Position numbers and translations under genes: made by a program
Notes under the pieces: model-generated
Told to the model about the DNA's origin: nothing
Seen by the model: only the letters and a program-made list of their open reading frames with translations
Database searches by the model: none
Part shown: positions 10,722 to 37,995 of the stretch, piece by piece
Numbering within the stretch: position 1 is the first letter of the stretch
Layout: each line of letters opens with the position of its first letter
Assembly: GCA_944324225.1 (NCBI GenBank)
Contig: CALUVL010000008.1
Coordinates: 1-64,000, forward strand
Source: Candidatus Gastranaerophilales bacterium
Lineage (GTDB): Bacteria; Cyanobacteriota; Vampirovibrionia; Gastranaerophilales; Gastranaerophilaceae
DNA length: 64,000 nucleotides
Direction: 5' to 3'

Positions 10722-10745
10722 ACAATCTCCCTTCTTAAAATATTA

Positions 10746-10890
10746 AAGCGTGTGAAGCCAACAACGGCGACCCGTTGAGGGTTGGCGTTTTGGCGTAACC
10801 GTTCAATGCCGCCGTTATGACCGAAGCCCGTAAGGGCGTAGGGAATGTACAAAATTTACAACAGTAAATTTTGACAGGCGGATTTTATAT
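10746..10890 (-). repeat. Structured intergenic repeat, copy C
   Basis: Third and most divergent copy of the late-region hairpin repeat. In sense: CCGCCTGTC, then CAAAATTTAC-TGTT-GTAAATTTTG, a small hairpin region with CCCTTACGGG, then ACGGCGGCATTGAACGGTTACG, and a right arm ending GGCTTCACACG. The inner stem is longer than in copies A and B but still pairs. Unlike them, it is not closed by an obvious second direct repeat. The gap 10722-10982 contains nothing else I recognise. Confidence 0.6.
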
Positions 10891-10982
10891 AAAATTGACG
10901 GGGAATAAACCCCGTCAACCCACCCATTCTTATATTCATCAATATAACGACGGGTAAAATTTATAAAATATCTACCGAAAAA

Positions 10983-11366
10983 TCAAGACTTCCTTATTCC
11001 CGTGCCGTCTGTACAATGAACCTCAAATTCATTTGTCATATTACGGGTTGTGGAAATTTCAGCCTCGCCACCGATAATACTACCTGTAAGTTCATAGGTT
11101 CTTGAAATCGTTTCAAGAATAATAGGAATATCGGGAGTTGAGCAGGCGTTTTGCCACGCATCTTCAAGGCTTGCCGGAACTTTTACCCTAAGCCCCGTAA
11201 TTTTTGGCAAAACATAAGACATATAACTGTCACCTGTTCCGTCGCCGTATTCCTGTGTTTCTGTTATTTTTAGACCGCCGTCAATAACGACCGGTTCCGT
11301 ATCTTTCGGGATTGCAAATTTTGTTCCGTTCAGCGTGAGCGAAACAGCATCGCCGCATCTTGCCAT
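10983..11366 (-). CDS. Tail tube protein (Mu gp40 type)
   Basis: 127 residues, mostly beta: DAVSLTLNGTKFAIPKDTEPVVIDGG, KITETQEYGDGTGDSYMSYVLPKITGLRVKV and a TNEFEVHCTDGTGI end. This fits the Mu-type tube subunit, and it directly follows the sheath gene in transcription order. Tube hexamers stack to form the DNA channel inside the sheath. Preceded by the conserved leader CACACACTTTAAAAATATAGGAGG, suggesting strong late expression. Confidence 0.82.
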   Translation of the reverse strand: MARCGDAVSLTLNGTKFAIPKDTEPVVIDGGLKITETQEYGDGTGDSYMSYVLPKITGLRVKVPASLEDAWQNACSTPDIPIILETISRTYELTGSIIGGEAEISTTRNMTNEFEVHCTDGTGIRKS

Positions 11367-19661: not shown

Positions 19662-21593
19662 CTAATTTAACCCTCGAATTGCTTTCAGGTATTCAAAAAC
19701 ATACCTTGGGTCGGGGTGGTCAAGTCCGAGAACATAAAGCGAAATGTTTCTTATAAACAAATCAGCCGCCGCCAGATTATAAACATTCAAGTCGAACGCC
19801 TCGTTTCTGCCGTGTTTTACCCATTGGATTTTTATGTTACCGCCCGGGGTTGTGATTTTTGTTCTCTGCTCTGTTGTTAATTGCCTGAAATATTCATCCG
19901 TGTATGAATTAGCAAAGGTATGCCAGCCGTCCGGATAATATGCTCCGTCCTGCGGTTCTTCCTGTGCAAAATACCGGGCGAGTATGTTCTTGTACAAATC
20001 AACATAGATTTCAACTAACGAAATATTTGTGTAATCTTTCAAATCGGCAATTTTTATCTTCTCTTTTGTGCGTTCGGTTACTCTGACACCTTTTAGCGGT
20101 AAGATTATCCCCTCGCCGAATGTTTCACAAAAATCATAAACAGCCGACTGGGTTTCCCCGTCGCCGGAGTCAACCAGTTGAGCGTTAACCGTACGCCCGT
20201 CAGTGAATATCTCGTCTTTTATTGCTCTGAACTGCTGCCAGCACGGATCATATATATCCTGCGGATTGCCGTAAAAAACACGGTGGTCAATTCCCCAGCA
20301 CCTGAACCTGTCGCCGTAGGCTTTAATCTCGCATTCTATACGGTTTCTTTGAACGTCAGCCGCACAGGTCATAAACAAGGCTTCTTTCGGCACCGTATTC
20401 GGCGGCATTCTGTCGTCTTTGAGCCTGTGGACTTGCTGATATTCAACCCCGCCCGTTCTCTCTTCAAACGGCAAGCCTAAATCAAGGTTATAAAAAACCT
20501 GTAATTTTTCAGGGTTTTTCCCCGCCTCAACAAACCTTTGAACAATTCTCCACCACGGACGGGTTAATGAATATAAAGCCGATATGTGATAAGAAACATA
20601 AAAAGGCACTTTTGAAATCGCTGTCGGTCGCCATTCGCCTTTATTTTCTATGCTTCGTTTATGATGCTCTTTAAACTCGCCGCCGCAGTGTTTACATCTG
20701 TAGCGAACAGAAGAATAATCGCCTTCTTTACATTTTTCGCTGTCAAACATCACCCCGTAAGGCTTTGTCTTGATTTTGTCTTTTGCAAGGGCTTTATCAT
20801 CTCCATATAAACCGCCGTCAGGCTGGTAGAAAACAAGTTCCTGCATTTCGCCGCAAATCGGACACGGTACAAAAAATTTACGCTGGTCGCCTTTTAGATA
20901 ACAGGCATAAATTTTTGAATTATGTTTAAGGGCAGGGGTTGAGTTGTAACAAATTTTTCTTCCCAATTCCGAATATGCATCGGTTCTGCTGACCGCTATT
21001 TGAATCGGGTCGCCCTCATCTTTTATTTTATCCGGATAGCCGTCAAGTTCATCCAGTGATAAACGCTTAATATGAGTTGAACGCAATTCTTTCGGGTTAT
21101 TTGCCGAAACAAATTTTAAAAAACCCCCTTTAAATTCCAAAAGCGACGATGTATCGCCCGTTCTTCTCGTGTTTCGGTTGTCGGTTTCAGCCGTGATTTT
21201 GTTTCTTAGCCCTGAATTATCAACCAGACCGTCAATTTTGATTTTTTTGTATTCTTCCGCCTGGTCTTTATTCGGAAAAACAAACATCATAGGACACGGG
21301 TCATAATCCATAGAATAACCGATTGAATTTTCAATAACGGAAGTGGTTAATCCTAATTGAACCCCTTTCATTATGGCGACTTCCTGCGTCGGGTCGTTTT
21401 TGGAAAATCTGTCGGCAATTTCACGGCAATAGGGGGCATTTTCAAATTCAAATAGACCGACCCTGCCTGATGCTTTACTATCTAAATACCGATTCATTTC
21501 AGCCCATTCAGACACAGTTATTAAGCTGTTATTCGGGATTAAAGCCGAAACAATACTGAAAATTTTGTCAATTTGTTTCGCTTTATCTGTCAT
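19662..21593 (-). CDS. Terminase large subunit (lambda gpA family)
   Basis: 643 residues from the ATG with GAGAGGG upstream; nineteen more codons are open but unlikely. The ATPase half holds the atypical Walker A region MKGVQLGLTTSVIENSIGY, Walker B RLSLDELDGYPD and NSTPALKHNSKI coupling segment. CPICGEMQ and CKHCGGEF form the zinc-binding pairs seen in gpA. The nuclease half has VQLVDSGDGETQSAVYDFC and GIILPLKGV. It translocates and cuts DNA during packaging, and the family suggests cos-type packaging. Confidence 0.93.
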   Translation of the reverse strand: MTDKAKQIDKIFSIVSALIPNNSLITVSEWAEMNRYLDSKASGRVGLFEFENAPYCREIADRFSKNDPTQEVAIMKGVQLGLTTSVIENSIGYSMDYDPCPMMFVFPNKDQAEEYKKIKIDGLVDNSGLRNKITAETDNRNTRRTGDTSSLLEFKGGFLKFVSANNPKELRSTHIKRLSLDELDGYPDKIKDEGDPIQIAVSRTDAYSELGRKICYNSTPALKHNSKIYACYLKGDQRKFFVPCPICGEMQELVFYQPDGGLYGDDKALAKDKIKTKPYGVMFDSEKCKEGDYSSVRYRCKHCGGEFKEHHKRSIENKGEWRPTAISKVPFYVSYHISALYSLTRPWWRIVQRFVEAGKNPEKLQVFYNLDLGLPFEERTGGVEYQQVHRLKDDRMPPNTVPKEALFMTCAADVQRNRIECEIKAYGDRFRCWGIDHRVFYGNPQDIYDPCWQQFRAIKDEIFTDGRTVNAQLVDSGDGETQSAVYDFCETFGEGIILPLKGVRVTERTKEKIKIADLKDYTNISLVEIYVDLYKNILARYFAQEEPQDGAYYPDGWHTFANSYTDEYFRQLTTEQRTKITTPGGNIKIQWVKHGRNEAFDLNVYNLAAADLFIRNISLYVLGLDHPDPRYVFEYLKAIRGLN

Positions 21594-21650
21594 TTTATCC
21601 CTCTCTGTCGGATTATTCGGGGTGTCGGCGGAGTAACGTCCGACCGACAC

Positions 21651-22314: not shown

Positions 22315-23109
22315 TTATTTTTTTAAATTTTTTGACATTTCTTTGATTAACCTTTTTTCGGCTTCTTTTTCAAATATTTCACCGCTTTTTGTGCCGACTT
22401 TATCAGCGGCAGGTTTTAACATCGGGCGTTTGTGCAGTTCCTGTCTTTTGTCTTTAAAAGAATAGAGGAGTTTACCTGAATGCCCCTTTATTACTCGCCG
22501 TCCGTCTTTTTTCTTTATCGTTCCCGTATCTTTGAATTGGAAAATTCCAAATTTATGACGGGAGGTTTCGCCGTCCGGGATGAAATTTATTGTCTTATGT
22601 GTATTATGAACAACGGCAACTGCCTGCCTGAATTGTTTTGCAATATCACCCTTAACCGGGTTTTTTGCAATATCTTCAATCTTTTTAGCGTTTGTTCTTG
22701 CAATTAAATTCTGTTTAGGTACGGTCTTTTTGTAACTTCCGCCCCTTGTGAATTTAGTTGCTTTTGGTGTGTATTTACCTTTTGAAACAAGAGTTTCGCC
22801 GAACTCCTGCTTTCTTAATTGGTCGGTTTCTTTGCCGTAAAATTCAGCACGCTGCCCTGTTACGGCTTCAAGATTTTCAACGGTCTTTTCTGAAAAATTT
22901 GTTCTTTCGTACCCGATAGATTTCATTACAATATTGTTTTTTGGAGTACGAATAACCAGTTCTTCACGCACGTTCTTTTTGTATTGAACCATTGTTTGAT
23001 AGACTTCGGCATTAAGTGTCGCCCGGACGGTGTCTATAAAGGCATATTTGTGAACATTGTTCAGGTTCTTTTCGTACTGTTTTAAATCTTTATCATCAAT
23101 ATCAAACAT
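22315..23109 (-). CDS. Putative minor structural protein (lambda gpZ-like), tentative
   Basis: 264 residues, strongly basic (many Lys and Arg), with a helical N-terminus (YAFIDTVRATLNAEVYQTMVQYKKNVREEL), a serine-poor basic middle and RPMLKPAADKVGTKSGEIFEKEAEKRL at the end. The shape resembles minor tail protein Z/virion morphogenesis proteins that complete the head-tail joint, but the location between methyltransferases and terminase is unusual. Its ATG comes 1 nt after the stop of the first methyltransferase, suggesting cotranscription. Function uncertain. Confidence 0.4.
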   Translation of the reverse strand: MFDIDDKDLKQYEKNLNNVHKYAFIDTVRATLNAEVYQTMVQYKKNVREELVIRTPKNNIVMKSIGYERTNFSEKTVENLEAVTGQRAEFYGKETDQLRKQEFGETLVSKGKYTPKATKFTRGGSYKKTVPKQNLIARTNAKKIEDIAKNPVKGDIAKQFRQAVAVVHNTHKTINFIPDGETSRHKFGIFQFKDTGTIKKKDGRRVIKGHSGKLLYSFKDKRQELHKRPMLKPAADKVGTKSGEIFEKEAEKRLIKEMSKNLKK

Positions 23110-23110
23110 T

Positions 23111-23775
23111 TTAAAAAATTCCCCTAAACAATCTTGTTTGTGCCTGAATGTTATTCAGCCGCTCAACACTCATTTTGAAATAATCTTCATCTTTTTCAAC
23201 GGCGATAAAATCTAAACCGAGGTTATAACAGGCAACCGCCGTTGTGCCGGAACCACTGAAAAAATCAGCAACTAACAGCCCCCCCCCCCCGCAGGGTTCG
23301 GGGTGTAATCCCGGAGTATTGTTTCTATGAGTTTTAACGGTTTTTGGGTTGGATGAATTGCTTTTTCGGTTTCGCCTGTTTTGACAAAACCCGACCACGG
23401 GAAATTATAACATTTTGCCACCCTGTCAAACGAAGTCCACGCCAATTCCCCGTCTGCAAAATTAGGCACTGGCGTATATTTATTCCAAAAAATAAAACCA
23501 CGCCCGCCATATTTCCATAAAACAGGGAAATAATTTCCGCCGAAAATTATCTGATTTTTTGAAACCCGGAATATTTCCAAAAACAAATCATCAGAAGGAA
23601 CACCCGAATCCCAGTCTTTTTTCTTCATTTTTGATTGAGAATGCGGGTTCTGGGAATAACTTATGCCGTACGGCGGATCGGTCAATACTAAATCAATACA
23701 TTTGTCAGGTAATTGTTTCATTATATCAAAACAATCGCCTAGAGTGATTTTATTTTTCAGATTTTCTAAAATCAT
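23111..23775 (-). CDS. Phase-variable beta-class DNA methyltransferase 1 (frame OFF, 12 G)
   Basis: The N-terminal frame (23272-23775) holds motif IV DPPYG, KNQIIFGGNYF and ends NPAGGGGC-stop inside a 12-G tract (23279-23290). The C-terminal frame (from 23278 leftward) continues GLLVADFFSGSGTTAVACYNLG (motif I) to the stop at 23111. The two halves would join with 10 or 13 G, so as sequenced the enzyme is truncated before its SAM-binding motif. Motif order IV-TRD-I marks the beta class; DPPY favours N6-adenine. It overlaps methyltransferase 2 by 4 nt (ATGA). Confidence 0.85.
23279..23290 (-). repeat. Poly-G tract (12 G, coding strand) in methyltransferase 1
   Basis: A 12-base homopolymer located exactly at the glycine codons between the target-recognition region and motif I. 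The register gives frame OFF. Intact paralogue 3 has 10 G at the same place. Confidence 0.9.
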
Positions 23776-24449
23776 ACAAAACCTTTAAACAATTTTATTT
23801 GAGCCTGAACGTCCTGTAACCGTTTAACCGAGTCCTCGTAATGTTTCAGGTTCTTTTCAACGCTTATAAAAGGTATCCCCAAATTATAACAGGCAATGGC
23901 GACACTCCCCGAACCGGAAAAGAAATCGGCAACAACCCCGTTTGATGAACTGTCGTAATAATCCCTTAAAATTCTTTCAAGTAATTTAACGGGCTTTTGT
24001 GTCGGGTGAATCCTGTACTCTTTATTTTTCATATCCTCTTGTATCATCCCGTTCCAGGTGAAAGAATATTTTCTAACCGCCGTTGAGAATGAAGTCCACG
24101 CTAACTCGCAATCCGCATAATTGCCGGTATTGTTTTTATCCCAGACAAGCCAGCAGGGTGAATTTTTGCCGATATTTTGTGCTAAAAAATTTCCACCGAA
24201 AATTATTTGATTTTTTGAAACCCGGAATATTTCATCAAAATAAATCTTATCAGGTATTTTATCATCCCAGTCGCTTTTCCCGTAGTCTTTGGCAACTCCC
24301 CTGTTTGATGTTCCTATAGTTCCACGTCTTGACATCTTTTCCCCGTACGGCGGGTCGGTAAGAACCAAATCGATACATTTATCGGGCAATTGCTTCATAA
24401 CATCCAAACAATCACCGTGTGTAATTTTATTTAAAAATTTCTCAATCAT
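23772..24449 (-). CDS. Beta-class DNA methyltransferase 2 (no tract, intact)
   Basis: 225 residues: NKITHGDCLDVMKQLPDKC, motif IV LTDPPYGEKMS, KNQIIFGGNFL, HPTQKPVKLLERILRDYY and motif I VVADFFSGSGSVAIACYNLG. At the site where its neighbours carry poly-G it reads SSSNG, with no homopolymer, so it should be expressed constitutively. The C-terminus is also the most diverged of the four. Likely N6-adenine methylation of a site different from those of its neighbours, since the region around residues 45-115 differs. ATGA overlaps with the genes on both sides. Confidence 0.9.
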   Translation of the reverse strand: MIEKFLNKITHGDCLDVMKQLPDKCIDLVLTDPPYGEKMSRRGTIGTSNRGVAKDYGKSDWDDKIPDKIYFDEIFRVSKNQIIFGGNFLAQNIGKNSPCWLVWDKNNTGNYADCELAWTSFSTAVRKYSFTWNGMIQEDMKNKEYRIHPTQKPVKLLERILRDYYDSSSNGVVADFFSGSGSVAIACYNLGIPFISVEKNLKHYEDSVKRLQDVQAQIKLFKGFV

Positions 24450-25108
24450 AACCGGAATAATTTCATTTGACTTTGTGCATTTTTCAGCCGCTCAACACTC
24501 ATTTTGAAATAATCCTCATCTTTTTCAACGGCGATAAAATCTAACCCGAGGTTATAACAGGCAACCGCCGTTGTACCGGAACCGCTGAAAAAATCAGCAA
24601 CTAGCAGCCCCCCCCCCGCAGGGTTCGGGGCATAATCCCGGAGTATTGTTTCAATGAGTTTGACGGGTTTTTGTGTCGGATGAAATCTTTGTTCTTTGTT
24701 TTTCATATCCTGCTGCAGGAATCCGTCCCACAAAAAATAATAAATTCTTAACGGACTTTTTATCGATTTATAAATCAACTCACCGTCGGCAAAAGTCCGC
24801 CTCGGAACAATATTACATCTTTTATCCCACAAATCCCAGCAACCCAGGGGTAATAAATCAACAAAATAATTCCCGCCGAATATTATTTGATTTTTTGAAA
24901 CTCTTATAATCTCATCAAAGAAAATTTTTGACGGACGTTCACTATCCCAATTTTTAGCCGTATATTTGTCTGACAACCCTGCATTTTTATCCATTCCGAT
25001 GCCATACGGCGGGTCGGTAAGAACCAAATCGATACATTTATCGGGTAATTGCTTCATAACATCTAAACAATCACCGTATGTAATTTTATTTAAAAATTTC
25101 TCAATCAT
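24446..25108 (-). CDS. Phase-variable beta-class DNA methyltransferase 3 (frame ON, 10 G)
   Basis: 220 residues, complete. Motif IV DPPYGIGMDKNAG, IIFGGNYFVDLL, HPTQKPVKLIETILRDYAPN-PAGGG and motif I LLVADFFSGSGTTAVACYNLG. Ten G at 24608-24617 keep the frame. N- and C-terminal ends are almost identical to copies 1 and 4, while the recognition region (about residues 45-120) is unrelated, so specificity should differ. Translationally coupled by ATGA overlaps. Confidence 0.92.
   Translation of the reverse strand: MIEKFLNKITYGDCLDVMKQLPDKCIDLVLTDPPYGIGMDKNAGLSDKYTAKNWDSERPSKIFFDEIIRVSKNQIIFGGNYFVDLLPLGCWDLWDKRCNIVPRRTFADGELIYKSIKSPLRIYYFLWDGFLQQDMKNKEQRFHPTQKPVKLIETILRDYAPNPAGGGLLVADFFSGSGTTAVACYNLGLDFIAVEKDEDYFKMSVERLKNAQSQMKLFRL
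24608..24617 (-). repeat. Poly-G tract (10 G, coding strand) in methyltransferase 3
   Basis: The homopolymer encodes the GGG glycines before motif I. Ten bases give an open frame; a gain or loss of one base would truncate the protein as in copies 1 and 4. Confidence 0.9.
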
Positions 25109-25784
25109 AACCGGAATAATTTCATTTGACTTTGTGCACCTTTCAGCCGCTCAACACTCATTTTGAAATAATCCTCATCTTTTTCAACGGCGATAAAATC
25201 TAACCCGAGGTTATAACAGGCAACCGCCGTTGTGCCGGAACCACTGAAAAAATCAGCAACTAGCAGCCCCCCCCCGCAAGGTTCGGGGCATAATCCCGGA
25301 GTATTGTTTCAATGAGTTTGACGGGTTTTTGGGTCGGGTGAATTTTTTGTTCGCTTTTTGTATTGCCGTCGATATTGCCATAATAAGGATATCTGTATCT
25401 TTTTGCCGGTTTGTTAAATGATGTCCAGGCTAATTCCCCGTCAGAAAAACAGTCCATAAACGAATTAACGGGCTGACATTTATCCCAAAATATAAAACCC
25501 TTTCCGCCGTATTTCCACAAAACAGGAAAATAATTTCCACCGAATATTATTTGATTTTTTGAAACCCTAAATATTTCACTAAAACAAATATCATCAGGAA
25601 TTTTGTCATCCCATTCAAATTTACTCCGTGGAAGTTTATGCCCCTGTCTGCCTAATTGCATTGCATTTGCTTTTATCCCGTACGGCGGGTCGGTAAGAAC
25701 CAAATCAATACATTTATCAGGCAATTGTTTCATTACATCTAAACAATCGCCGTGTGTGATTTTATTTTTCAAACTTTCAATCAT
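25105..25784 (-). CDS. Phase-variable beta-class DNA methyltransferase 4 (frame OFF, 9 G)
   Basis: The N-terminal frame (25260-25784) contains motif IV LTDPPYGIKANAMQ, KNQIIFGGNYFPVLW and ends NLAGGGC-stop within a 9-G tract (25267-25275). The other frame carries LLVADFFSGSGTT (motif I) and ends at 25105 with the same KLFRL tail as copy 3. One extra G would restore the enzyme. First gene of the four-methyltransferase cassette; starts in a TAATG overlap with the gene upstream. Confidence 0.85.
25267..25275 (-). repeat. Poly-G tract (9 G, coding strand) in methyltransferase 4
   Basis: Same position as the tracts in copies 1 and 3. Nine bases put motif I out of frame; 10 would be ON. Confidence 0.9.
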
Positions 25785-26266
25785 TACAATTTTTCCGTTT
25801 TGACAGGGTTTACGATTTTTATTCCGGCATCTTCTGTTTCATCAATATATCGGGGGATTTGTGAAATCCCGTCTTTTAAAACTTTTCCATATACCCACGG
25901 AATTTTTTTTGAATGTTTAACTTCCGCCTTGGGTTTAAAAGGATTCGGAATATCGATTAAATCATACATATCGCAGCGGCGGTCAAAAATCTCATCCGCC
26001 TTTTTGCCTCTGATGATTTTTGTTTCATCCCAGTTTATAAAACTTGTTGATGAGTTTGCGTAAAATAAAAATCTTAAAACCCAGTGTTTACAATTAGGAC
26101 AATGACCAACGAGTAACAGTTCTTTTTTTACGGGTCTGCCGTCTGAAAGTTTTATTTTGAAAAATTTTTCGCCTGATTTTAATTTAAAACAGTCAATGTA
26201 TTTATAACTTTTTGTTCCTGTTTTAACTTCATAGCTGCAACAATCTAATATTAAAAAACCTTTCAC
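25784..26266 (-). CDS. Unknown protein with CPNC zinc-like pair, leads the methyltransferase cassette
   Basis: About 160 residues from a GTG with AGAGGG 6 nt upstream; a TTG six codons earlier is the alternative. Beta-rich N-terminal half with HCPNCKHWVLRFLFY (about residue 60), then a basic stretch (IIRGKKADEIFDRRCDMYDLIDIPNPF). Overlaps methyltransferase 4 as TAATG, so it is coupled to that operon. It could be a DNA-recognition or modification partner, but nothing identifies a nuclease. Function unknown. Confidence 0.6.
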   Translation of the reverse strand: MKGFLILDCCSYEVKTGTKSYKYIDCFKLKSGEKFFKIKLSDGRPVKKELLLVGHCPNCKHWVLRFLFYANSSTSFINWDETKIIRGKKADEIFDRRCDMYDLIDIPNPFKPKAEVKHSKKIPWVYGKVLKDGISQIPRYIDETEDAGIKIVNPVKTEKL

Positions 26267-26334
26267 ACTCAACCCTCTCTTCAAAAGGCGATATATAAGA
26301 GGGCGTTTGTCTTATCAAGAAAGGAGGTTCGATT

Positions 26335-28397: not shown

Positions 28398-28816
28398 TTT
28401 TCCTCCCTCGTTTTATTTATCACTTTAAGAATTTCTTTTCCTATAATCATTTGACAAAATTTGTTGCAATGATTATCAAAACCCGCACCGCCGTTATACG
28501 GACAATCATCTTCCCCGATGCACGGCGGTTGTTCCACAAACAAGCCTTTAGTCAAATTTTCAACTTCCCCGAGGGCGTTATAGTATTTTTTGAATTTTTG
28601 TTTTAATCTCTGATATTCATTAAATTGTTCTTCTGTCACCTGAACCGTTACACCCTCGCCGTCAATAGTTAAAACTTGATTTTTCCATATTTCAAGTTCA
28701 CTTTTTAGTTTTTTATTTTCCCTTGTTTTAACCTGGATAATCTGTTTAAGCATTTCTTTTTCATACTTATTTTGTTTTATTGTCTTATTGAATAATTCCG
28801 AAATAATAGACTTCAT
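28394..28816 (-). CDS. Coiled-coil protein with Cys-rich segment
   Basis: 140 residues. A long N-terminal coiled coil (to about residue 85) leads to a segment with four cysteines (PPCIGEDDCPYNG...NHCNKFC, about 100-121), and then a basic end. Possibly metal-binding. ATGA-type overlap with both neighbours. No family recognised. Confidence 0.55.
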   Translation of the reverse strand: MKSIISELFNKTIKQNKYEKEMLKQIIQVKTRENKKLKSELEIWKNQVLTIDGEGVTVQVTEEQFNEYQRLKQKFKKYYNALGEVENLTKGLFVEQPPCIGEDDCPYNGGAGFDNHCNKFCQMIIGKEILKVINKTREEK

Positions 28817-29706
28817 TAGTTTTCCTCCTTTTGCAAAATTTTCGGAAATTCTTTGTATTCTTTGCCGTCAAGAACTGCCCTTACTTTTTTCTTGCCGGTT
28901 TTTAAAATAATCACCCCTCTTTTATTGTCGATTGACCGTCCTGTTTGTTTTTCCCACTTTTTAACATCTTTAGGAAATATTCCGTCAATTATGCTTCCGT
29001 CCTTTAGCATTATTTTTGCCGATAATTTAGAATAAATCGGATCTTCAATTGTAAACGGCGGATTTTGTTTAGCGGCAATCCATTCGCCCCATTGTTTAAA
29101 GAAAAACGGAACGTTTTGTTCTTGACATTGTTTTTGTATATTGCGAACCCAATCCGGGTGCATAGGTCTTGCACCCGTGCCGGACTCACCCCCAACTATC
29201 ACCCAGTCAATCCCTGTCAAATCTAATTTTCCCAAATCTCCGAGAAGCGGTTCACAACTTAAAAATTTAACCTTAGCATCTGTATGACGTAAAAATTCAA
29301 TCCTGTTTTTGTAGTTTTCTTTTTCTACGGTTACACCGAGCCAAACATTCGGCGGATAGGAAAACTCCCTTATTCTTGCGGCTCTTTTGGTTAAAATCTG
29401 AAAAATATGTTGTTTATTAAAGGAACAATATTCAAGTATTCTGCTAATTCGAATTTTTGAAATATCGGCATGAAAAGTATCTGACATTGAGTTTACAAAA
29501 ATCATTTTTGATTTTCCGCCAAAATCCCGATTTAACTCTTCCTGATGAAAGACAACCTTGTTAAACCCGTTTTTATACTTCTCTTGTCCCATAGCAGCAA
29601 GGCGTTTTGTCATTCTTTCGGCATAGCAATTTTGACACCCTTCTGAATATTTTGTGCAACCGGTAACTGGGTTCCACGTTTCATTTGTCCATTCTATTTT
29701 TGACAC
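28816..29706 (-). CDS. Phage Gp37/Gp68-family (DUF5131) radical-SAM-like protein
   Basis: 296 residues. The start IEWTNETWNPVTGCTKYSEGCQNCYAERM is the family signature; the three cysteines (about 15, 22 and 25) resemble a radical-SAM iron-sulphur cluster site. Further motifs are FVNSMSDTFH, ILTKRAARI, NVWLGVTVEK and VIVGGESGTGARPMHPDWV. The C-terminal ~60 residues are basic. The family is common in phages and mobile elements, but its substrate is not established; a nucleic-acid or nucleotide modification role is plausible given the neighbouring methyltransferases. Confidence 0.85.
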   Translation of the reverse strand: MSKIEWTNETWNPVTGCTKYSEGCQNCYAERMTKRLAAMGQEKYKNGFNKVVFHQEELNRDFGGKSKMIFVNSMSDTFHADISKIRISRILEYCSFNKQHIFQILTKRAARIREFSYPPNVWLGVTVEKENYKNRIEFLRHTDAKVKFLSCEPLLGDLGKLDLTGIDWVIVGGESGTGARPMHPDWVRNIQKQCQEQNVPFFFKQWGEWIAAKQNPPFTIEDPIYSKLSAKIMLKDGSIIDGIFPKDVKKWEKQTGRSIDNKRGVIILKTGKKKVRAVLDGKEYKEFPKILQKEEN

Positions 29707-30635: not shown

Positions 30636-31518
30636 CTACACCACCACCTCGCTTTCAAAATTCATAAAACTAAAAATATGTGCTATAACATCAACCGTCC
30701 AGCCGTCCCCGATTACGCCGGCGGCTCGATTACGGTTTAAAACTTTTGTGTAACCCTCCGGCAGAGTCTGCAGCCGTTCTAATTCTGTTTGATTAAGATG
30801 TCTGCAAGACAAACGGTCGCTCAAATCTTCAAAAACAAGCGTACACATACCCGTTTGTTCGTAACGGCGGAGCATTTTTGTTTTATTTACTAAAGGTCTT
30901 GAATCGCTTTCTTTAATACAAAAAGCCTTTAGTCTATCAGCAAACCCGCTTGTTAAAATATTTTGTAAATAAATCTTTTTATCTTTTGGTTGTGGAATTG
31001 CACAAGTCGGAAACCCAAAAAGATTATAGTTTTTATCCCCTATGTTAGTCCAGTAATAACGGTTTCTTAATTGTGCCGAAACAAGACTTGAATTTATATT
31101 TACGGGATAAATACCAAGTGCCTGCGATATTGTTTCATAATCAGCAGGCGGCATTTCAACATTTTCAAGAAGAAAATATTTTGGGTTCAATTCCTGTTTT
31201 GCACGTACATATTCCCAAAACAAAGAACTTTTTTGACCTTTTAAGCCGAGGCGTGTTTTGTGTGCCTGCGATAAATCCTGACAAGGGCTTCCGCCAATAA
31301 GCAAATCACACCCCCCCCCCAACAGCCGAAACAAAATCGACGTTTCTTACATCGCCTAATTGTTTCGTGTCGGGATAATTTGTCATTGTAACTTTTATTG
31401 CATCGGGTTTAATTTCGCATGCAAAATATTCAGACACAATAAATCCGGCTCTTTCAAGAGCAATCCTGCCGCAACTTATGCCGTCAAATAAACTTACTAC
31501 TTTTAAACCCTTTTTCAT
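30636..31518 (-). CDS. Phase-variable C5-cytosine DNA methyltransferase (frame OFF, 10 G)
   Basis: Two frames together make one enzyme. The first (31306-31518) has motif I VVSLFDGISCGRIALERAG and ends SAVGGGV-stop in a 10-G tract; the second (30636-31334 frame) resumes CDLLIGGSPCQDLS (motif IV, catalytic Cys in PCQ), then FLLENVEMP (motif VI ENV), LRNRYYWTN (motif VIII) and CRHLNQTELERLQTLPEGYT (motif IX) and GDGWTVDVIAHIF (motif X). Nine G would give SAVGGGCDLLIGG in frame. As sequenced it is OFF, cut before the catalytic loop. No restriction enzyme is adjacent. Confidence 0.87.
31311..31320 (-). repeat. Poly-G tract (10 G, coding strand) in the C5 methyltransferase
   Basis: The homopolymer lies at glycine codons just before the catalytic motif IV. 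Ten bases lead to GTG-TGA; nine restore the frame into IGGSPCQ. Confidence 0.9.
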
Positions 31519-35990: not shown

Positions 35991-36470
35991 ATGAAAAAAC
36001 AAATTTTAACTTTTTTACTTATCGGAGTCGTTGCTCTTGGCGTTTGCGGCTGTTCAAATACTCAACAAACAGCAACTGAAAAGAAACCAGAACAACAGGA
36101 AGTTATAAAAACAAACCCAGTTGTTACGGCGGATTTAAAATTTGCCAATGGTTTAGAGAGCATTCTCAATTCAGGTTATTCAATAGTTGATAAAACAAAG
36201 GTTTATTATACAAAATCTGCAGATTTTCAAGAAGTGTATTTTTTGGGAACTTTAGTAAAGAAAGGAACACAATACTATAATGCTGTATGGGCAACAAATA
36301 ATATAGAAAGTTTCGGAATGGGGCTTGTTTTTTCAATGAATGATAACGCAATACAATCTTCCGGTATGGGCGACGGTCGTACAAACAGAGAGCCTTTGAG
36401 TGAAACAGATGACGGCTATTCACGTATAAATCAAAAAGTGCTTGACGATATGTCGGAGGCTGTTAAATAA
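35991..36470 (+). CDS. Lipoprotein expressed with the lysogeny genes (moron candidate)
   Basis: 159 residues. A type II signal peptide (MKKQILTFLLIGVVALGVCGC, lipobox GVCG-C at residue 21) is followed by a Gln/Thr/Lys linker and a beta-rich domain. It lies 12 nt after the repressor with its own AGGAGG, and 1 nt before the recombinase ATG, so it should be made by the lysogen. Surface lipoproteins in this position often alter the host envelope or block superinfection; that role is inferred. Confidence 0.75.
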   Translation: MKKQILTFLLIGVVALGVCGCSNTQQTATEKKPEQQEVIKTNPVVTADLKFANGLESILNSGYSIVDKTKVYYTKSADFQEVYFLGTLVKKGTQYYNAVWATNNIESFGMGLVFSMNDNAIQSSGMGDGRTNREPLSETDDGYSRINQKVLDDMSEAVK

Positions 36471-36471
36471 A

Positions 36472-37995
36472 ATGATAAATAAAGCGGTTTTATACACAAG
36501 GGTTTCATCGGATGAACAGAAAAAGAAGGGATTTTCGCTGGATTATCAGGAAAAACACGGTCGGGAATATGCCCTTAAACACGGACTGAATATCGTCAAA
36601 GTGTTTTCAGAATCGTACACAGCCAAAAAACCCGGACGCCCCGCTTTTAATGATATGCTCCAGTTTGTCAGAAAAAACAAAATAGAACATCTGATATTTT
36701 TAAAATCTGACAGGGCTTCAAGAAATGGGGTTGACTCATCCGCCCTTGTGTATATGGCTGAACGGGATATATTCAACATCCACTTAATACAAGATAATCT
36801 TTGTTTGAACCGCCGCTCTCGTCCGACTGATTTTCTTGTATTTGAAATGAACAATATAATCGCTAATTTTTATCCCCGAAACCTTTCTGTTGAAGTAACA
36901 ACAAAACTTCTTGAAAAAGCCGAACAAGGCTATTATCCCGAACGCTCGCCCGTCGGGTATATGAGAAAACCTAAAGAAAAAAGGGCTTATTTACAAATAG
37001 ATCCCGAAAAAGCCCCGTATATCAAAAGAATATTTGAACTTTATTCCACTGGCAAATATTCATATAAAACCCTAGCGAAACAACTGCGGGATGAAGGGTT
37101 TATGATTTCACCGGCTGTAAAATGCGGAAAATCAAACATTGAAGATATTTTAAATAATCCTGTGTACATTGGTGATTTTATATTTAAAGGCAAACGTTAT
37201 TACAATGCAAACCACGAACCTATTGTTTCAAGAGAGTTATATTCTATGTGTCAGGATATAATAAAAAGCCGTACTTCGGGAAAATCCACAAAGCACGACT
37301 TTACTTTTTCAAATCTTTTAAAATGCTCAAAATGCGGCTGTTATCTGGTAGGCGAACTCAAAAAGGGTAAATACATTTATTATCACTGCACGGGCAATAA
37401 AGGCGGTAATTGTAAATCTAAAAGTTATGTTCGACAGGAAAAAGTTGAACAAAAAGTTTTTGAAATATTTGACCAATTGAGATTATCAGATGCAACAATT
37501 GAACTTGCAAAAACCTGCTTTATAAATGAGTTAAAAAATCAAAATCAAAATGTTGAAGAAAGAATAACACACCTTGATTCCGAAATTCAAAAAAATAAAG
37601 ACCGTTTAGATAAACTCTTTAATCTCTATCTTGACGACAAAGTTGACGAAAATTTATACGATAAAAAAAGAACTGATATAGAAAAATCTCTGGATGATTT
37701 AATTCTTTTGAGAGGAGCATGCACAAAAACAAGCGTTGAACTTATTAAATATAGTGAAAATCTGTTCGAACTCCTAAAAATGTCCGCCACGATTTATTCT
37801 CGGCTAAATAATGCCAAAAAACGGGAATTATTAAAAATGTTATGTTCGAACTTTTATTATGACGGCGAAAATGTAGTTATAACAATAAAAAAAGCGTTTG
37901 AACCAATCGTTCAAATCGCTAATTTAGAAAAAATGGAGGTTAGGAGATTCGAACTCCTGACCCCCTGCGTGCAAAGCAGGTGCTCTACCAGCTGA
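36472..37995 (+). CDS. Large serine recombinase (integrase)
   Basis: About 507 residues from MINKAVLYTRVSSDEQ (upstream ten codons rejected). Resolvase domain with catalytic Ser in YTRVSSDEQ (~11), followed by LKSDRASRNG and a recombinase domain (YPERSPVGYMRKP, INDILNNPVYIGDFIFKGKRYY-like). A zinc ribbon CSKCGCYLVGELKKGKYIYYHCTGNKGGNC (~285-315) and a coiled coil (~345-410) complete the large-serine type. The last ~20 codons (from MEVRRFEL) are the complement of the tRNA-Ala gene, so that C-terminus exists only in the integrated state. Confidence 0.93.
   Translation: MINKAVLYTRVSSDEQKKKGFSLDYQEKHGREYALKHGLNIVKVFSESYTAKKPGRPAFNDMLQFVRKNKIEHLIFLKSDRASRNGVDSSALVYMAERDIFNIHLIQDNLCLNRRSRPTDFLVFEMNNIIANFYPRNLSVEVTTKLLEKAEQGYYPERSPVGYMRKPKEKRAYLQIDPEKAPYIKRIFELYSTGKYSYKTLAKQLRDEGFMISPAVKCGKSNIEDILNNPVYIGDFIFKGKRYYNANHEPIVSRELYSMCQDIIKSRTSGKSTKHDFTFSNLLKCSKCGCYLVGELKKGKYIYYHCTGNKGGNCKSKSYVRQEKVEQKVFEIFDQLRLSDATIELAKTCFINELKNQNQNVEERITHLDSEIQKNKDRLDKLFNLYLDDKVDENLYDKKRTDIEKSLDDLILLRGACTKTSVELIKYSENLFELLKMSATIYSRLNNAKKRELLKMLCSNFYYDGENVVITIKKAFEPIVQIANLEKMEVRRFELLTPCVQSRCSTS

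Follow-up and report, generated by a model that had tools for sequence, protein, structure and literature searches.

Why should one temperate phage carry four overlapping DNA methyltransferase genes, three of them with a long run of guanines at the same glycine position and two of them out of frame? The 64,000-nucleotide stretch analysed here (the window) comes from a Candidatus Gastranaerophilales genome and contains a temperate myophage, recognised as such because tail sheath, baseplate, tape measure, head, protease, portal, terminase and replication genes are present together with a repressor and a large serine integrase (36442..37995, plus strand; Resolvase and Recombinase domains, phrog_95). 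These structural, replication and integration genes are contiguous with host genes, including dnaN, to the right of the prophage, which on the left extends past the start of the contig. The window also encodes a DUF5131 protein (28816-29706; phrog_2045, function unknown) that occurs in several phages of the array-bearing family. The answer that we consider likely is that the methyltransferase genes form a contingency array of orphan enzymes carried by a temperate phage, phase-variable through slipped-strand events and probably serving as a bet-hedged defence against restriction.

The array occupies 23111-25784 on the minus strand, and its four genes, transcribed in the order M1 to M4 from 25784 down to 23111, are joined by three 4-nt ATGA overlaps. 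M1 (25105..25784, minus strand) matches PF01555 on its N-terminal part and consists of two open halves linked only through a frame-shifting G9 run; M2 (24446..25108, minus strand) encodes a complete enzyme of 220 aa (PF01555, 2.6e-22), M3 (23772..24449, minus strand) an intact enzyme of 225 aa that has no tract (PF01555, 1.5e-19), and M4 (23111..23775, minus strand) again has both halves open, with a G12 run out of register. PF01555 (N6_N4_Mtase) matches all four genes, the truncated reading frame of M4 scoring below the curated cut-off, and the motif order of the enzymes, namely motif IV (DPPY), recognition domain and motif I (FxGxG), together with this Pfam match places them in the beta class. 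DPPY and SGSG are invariant or nearly so and, because DPPY falls in known motif classes, the target is probably N6-adenine. Both flanks of the array are conserved and keep the same position in relatives: gp166 (25784..26284, minus strand) lies directly upstream, its stop overlapping the M1 start by 1 nt, and gp264 (22315..23109, minus strand; phrog_4688), which resembles a minor tail protein, lies directly downstream. Neither of these two neighbours is a nuclease by Pfam or PHROGs, the phage ORFs scanned included no restriction nuclease, and the array genes, at about 220 aa, show neither the large Mod nor the adjacent res of a Type III restriction-modification (mod/res) system. A sequence-only reading of this locus had the coordinates, the four beta-class genes and the 4-nt overlaps right. 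Its description of the gene ends as near-identical fits the 3' third of M1, M2 and M4 (about 89-100% nucleotide identity over most of it) but neither the 5' end (66-96%) nor the 3' end of M3 (52-68%).

The tracts of M1 (G9, 25267..25275), M2 (G10, 24608..24617) and M4 (G12, 23279..23290), all on the minus strand, share one glycine position, which HPTQKP precedes and motif I follows; in M3 the corresponding residues are SSNGVV. In-frame lengths are 7, 10 and 13 for M1 and M4, and G10 alone is in frame among G9, G10 and G12; M2 is therefore ON, and M1 and M4 are OFF. Checking the registers bore out the lengths, the shared position and the ON/OFF calls of the sequence-only reading. At off-register lengths a stop follows 4 or 11 nt past the tract and leaves a product of about 166-177 aa that lacks motif I, so that the length of a repeat inside the ORF fixes the reading frame, as in a contingency locus. 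As the array genes overlap and an OFF gene terminates about 155 nt ahead of the next overlapping start, switching may be polar rather than independent, as the sequence-only reading had it. In a structural model of M2 computed from 50 sequences (pLDDT 86.5), which superseded one from 13 sequences (pLDDT 54) and displays a Rossmann-like methyltransferase fold, the tract-encoded Gly165-167 lie in a loop that leads from the helix at 149-159 into the motif I strand (169-172); judging from the model, this pre-motif-I loop should tolerate the extra glycine of a 13-G tract. The best PDB matches to the model are M.BceJIV, MboIIA, CcrM and M1.HpyAVI, with E-values down to about 1e-13 and TM-scores of about 0.6.

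Related phages were found by searches with the terminase large subunit (19662..21650, minus strand; PF05876, PF20454) and by sequence-pattern searches. The locus gp166-[methyltransferases]-gp264-gp196-terminase is conserved in L171 (with its near copies L169, L170 and L173), L151, L153, L038, L154, L155, L156, L157 and L158; each of these relatives carries one to three beta-class genes at the locus (L151 being cut by a contig end), compared with the window's four, and the M3 orthologues in L171, L151, L155, L156 and L157 are without a tract. Of 383 host-family genomes the pattern scan matched four, each of them with this prophage lineage (none in the reversed control); it also matched nine viral contigs, eight of which belong to the lineage. 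One viral contig match, L172, proved spurious, not being a methyltransferase. In the more distant phages L160-L166, with about 50-55% terminase identity, the array is absent.

The phage possesses a fourth poly-G methyltransferase switch, overlooked by the sequence-only reading, in a C5-cytosine DNA methyltransferase gene (30636..31518, minus strand; phrog_116, PF00145 on both halves). Its G10 tract (31311..31320, minus strand) sits just ahead of GGSPCQ (motif IV), where the in-frame lengths are 9 and 12, and the gene is OFF. The corresponding tract is G9 and in frame in L171 and L153, and G8 and out of frame in L155; L156 has an interrupted form of it (GGGGAG). Compared with the near-identical L171 (4691-5503), which comes from another sample, L170 has lost most of its C5-methyltransferase gene to a deletion of about 0.8 kb. 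Tracts are found at other places in methyltransferases as well: in-frame runs are present in L155, whose first methyltransferase bears G10 at the N-terminus, and in L158, as G11 following DPPYG. Among methyltransferase genes on other phage contigs, that of L063 (3903-4569) has G9 at IIWGG, out of frame, that of L058 (5944-6633) has G8 near the N-terminus, and that of L068 (5977-6693) has G10 after DPPY, in frame. In L171, L156 and L157, a further gene (gene X), which sits between gp166 and the first beta-class gene, ends in a poly-G tract; the L171 copy (10731-11336) encodes an EcoRI-like DNA methyltransferase (phrog_799). In L171 and L156, a single register of this terminal tract makes the gene X stop coincide with the start codon of the methyltransferase that follows, and the tract may act as a switch that couples the array.

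Types of target-recognition domain (TRD) are shared across phages: that of the first gene of the window (W_1) is shared with L156_1 and L171_1, and that of the fourth (W_4) with L151_2, L155_2 and L171_3. The 3' modules, running from HPTQKP to the gene end, resemble each other most within a phage, their identity being 0.85 inside one phage and 0.75 across different phages (3 of 10,000 label shuffles). The modules of W_1 and W_2 are 97% identical, compared with 73-76% between W_1 and its own TRD orthologues; L171 is the exception, the 3' modules of its two tract genes being no closer than those of orthologues. Because TRD types recur between phages while the 3' modules are most alike within them, these patterns suggest gene conversion inside arrays combined with TRD exchange between phages.

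From the sequence evidence, slipped-strand switching of orphan methyltransferases appears very likely. Slipped-strand replication would lengthen or shorten the run of a tract gene by at least one G; one length in three would then give the full enzyme, and the remaining lengths a protein without the SAM-binding motif I, M3 acting as the constant member of the array. Since the TRDs differ among the enzymes, the outcome would be a prophage and virion population with differing methylation patterns, and the tract-bearing 3' module would be homogenised within the array, probably via gene conversion. The benefit would be a bet-hedged protection of phage DNA from variable host restriction. The genetic switch itself has good support; what we infer from it is active switching and its rate, enzyme activity, specificity and function. 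As to purpose, we prefer with moderate confidence the shielding of phage DNA from variable host restriction, on the grounds of analogy and of the lack of a restriction nuclease among the scanned phage ORFs. The main alternative, which we hold to be rather unlikely, gives the same switch another purpose, that of a phage-borne phasevarion altering gene expression in host or prophage, with lysis-lysogeny or surface traits as examples: phase-variable methyltransferases regulate bacterial genes, and the prophage methyltransferase PamA shifts host expression in Staphylococcus aureus (PMC13076061). However, several methyltransferases with TRDs swapped among phages fit a diversification of marks better than the control of fixed promoters.

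Whether the tracts are switches at all, whatever their purpose, can be weighed by their lengths in relatives. The pre-motif-I tract occurs in 14 genes of nine phages (window included), with lengths of 8-12 and with six genes ON and eight OFF. A comparison of tract lengths among related metagenomic prophages had been proposed by the sequence-only reading as a check; as they range from 8 to 12 across related genomes, the objection that a single fixed length would have raised falls away. Long G runs are able to cause transcriptional slippage, and the tracts could accordingly be slippage signals, at which slippage of RNA polymerase or the ribosome along 8-12 Gs yields some full enzyme from every allele and tunes its dose. 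The OFF alleles do stay open downstream, but a fixed signal should hold one length and register, whereas the relatives span the whole range and 6 of 14 genes are directly in frame, which makes this account improbable; leak from OFF alleles on top of switching is possible.

The closest comparisons are those between near-identical phages. L119 and L122, contigs of one phage from different metagenomes, show a single difference in 11,545 bp, which is the length of the M4 tract (G10 versus G9; the L119 tract lies 17 nt from the contig end). L170 and L171 differ in the M4 tract (8 versus 9) and at one other place in a 7.7-kb stretch (the L170 tract lies 8 nt from the contig end). Repeat length thus varies between close relatives in an otherwise intact gene, one of the marks of a contingency locus. 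Homopolymer errors of assembly or sequencing might be invoked for such differences, all the more as the host genome is a 28-contig draft and several contigs end beside tracts, but an error could shift a length by one without creating the runs, and independent assemblies show the long runs at one and the same codon position, with M3 always free of them; we deem this very improbable.

Among glycine codons, GGG makes up 21% in phage genes other than the tract genes and 16% in tract genes when the tract itself is left aside; beside the tract, 42% of same-residue codons differ at the third base between phages, and the tract is pure in 14 of 14 genes. Such purity amid codon divergence is evidence for selection acting on the tract. 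It also counts against the idea, to which we give the least credence of all the readings weighed, that OFF genes are duplicates in decay, which persist solely to donate recognition domains: although 8 of the 14 tract genes are out of frame and domains and 3' modules do recombine, six genes are in frame, and in all eight OFF genes both halves are open, tract length being the sole lesion, with no stop or frameshift elsewhere. An additional donor role of OFF genes is possible. Chance is ruled out as the origin of the tracts, the window holding four C/G runs of at least nine against 0.14 expected (first-order Markov estimate), all four inside methyltransferase genes (M1, M2, M4 and the C5-methyltransferase). 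The phase-variable array proposed by the sequence-only reading is therefore supported, in that the tract position recurs with varied lengths, OFF genes are otherwise open, near-identical phages differ at the tract and M3 is tract-free.

In the host genus, HsdR-type restriction genes are patchy (8 of 14 genomes), which counts in favour of the preferred purpose. The host encodes both MutS1 and MutL, which rules out a mismatch-repair defect as the source of tract instability. Outside the prophage, the host genome has about 16 more G12-13 tracts (loci L001-L013; contigs C1, C2, C4, C8 (71521), C13, C14, C16, C17, C20 and C22), most of them within a conserved sequence context right at the N-terminal end of prepilin-like genes (FTMAEVLITLGIIGIVAAMTLP). 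Tracts of at least 11 Gs are present in 12 of 13 genomes of the host genus versus 1 of 8 from other families of the order, and the genus looks rich in poly-G contingency loci. Three contig ends of the host (C1 end, C8 end and C14 start) fall in identical pilin-gene poly-G contexts; the assembly therefore breaks at such repeats.

Returning to the array, a broader proposition, on which we are evenly divided, is that of a phage family with combinatorial, recombining slipped-strand switches on beta-class, C5 and EcoRI-like methyltransferases, in which one lysogen would give rise to virions with many methylation patterns, as a phage-side counterpart of host phasevarions, some members possibly coupling the array through the tract of the upstream gene. 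Bacteria are known to use phase-variable methylation as a strategy; if the preferred reading is true, here it is a virus that spreads the risk of unpredictable host restriction by varying the marks on its own DNA. For models of the arms race, this would mean that virion methylomes are mixtures and that growth on restricting hosts selects particular tract lengths.

Phase variation of methyltransferases is already known, and the new aspect would be a phage-borne array of switchable ones; no report of a phage-borne multi-gene array of poly-G-switched methyltransferases was found in the open-licence papers searched. The CpG (C5) methyltransferase of Mycoplasma agalactiae undergoes poly(G) phase variation through a run of 6-11 in mid-gene, upstream of the conserved active domain, whose length sets truncation, as shown by fragment analysis (PMC9465063). 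The likeness lies in a poly(G) length inside a methyltransferase gene, ahead of a conserved domain, that sets truncation; the Mycoplasma gene, however, is present in all genomes studied and belongs to no phage array, whereas here the C5 and up to three beta-class methyltransferases of one phage carry tracts. In the Type III mod phasevarions of several bacteria, a change of repeat length within the methyltransferase gene toggles it ON and OFF, and alleles differ in the recognition domain (PMC13076061). This repeat-driven switching with differing recognition domains (also in ModM alleles) is shared, but the enzymes described here are small orphans in a tandem prophage array with no adjacent res gene. 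Cj0031 of Campylobacter jejuni is a Type IIG enzyme with phase-variable methylation (PMC4889913), and its gene is stated to mutate at a poly-C/G tract (PMC4687069); phase-variable methylation is shared, but Cj0031 is a fused restriction-modification enzyme on a bacterial chromosome, unlike the phage array. Orphan phage beta-class methyltransferases (phrog_67) are of the same enzyme family, the enzyme of Tetrasphaera phage TJE1 being 44% identical over 94% of M2. Phage methyltransferases of this family are common, a relative being present in 808 phage records, and those listed are annotated as single, intact enzymes. Phages of the Bacillus SP-beta group carry multispecific C5-methyltransferases, with several recognition domains per enzyme, for self-protection. 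There the several domains reside in one always-on enzyme, whereas here they are distributed over separate switchable genes, and both arrangements give one phage several recognition domains.
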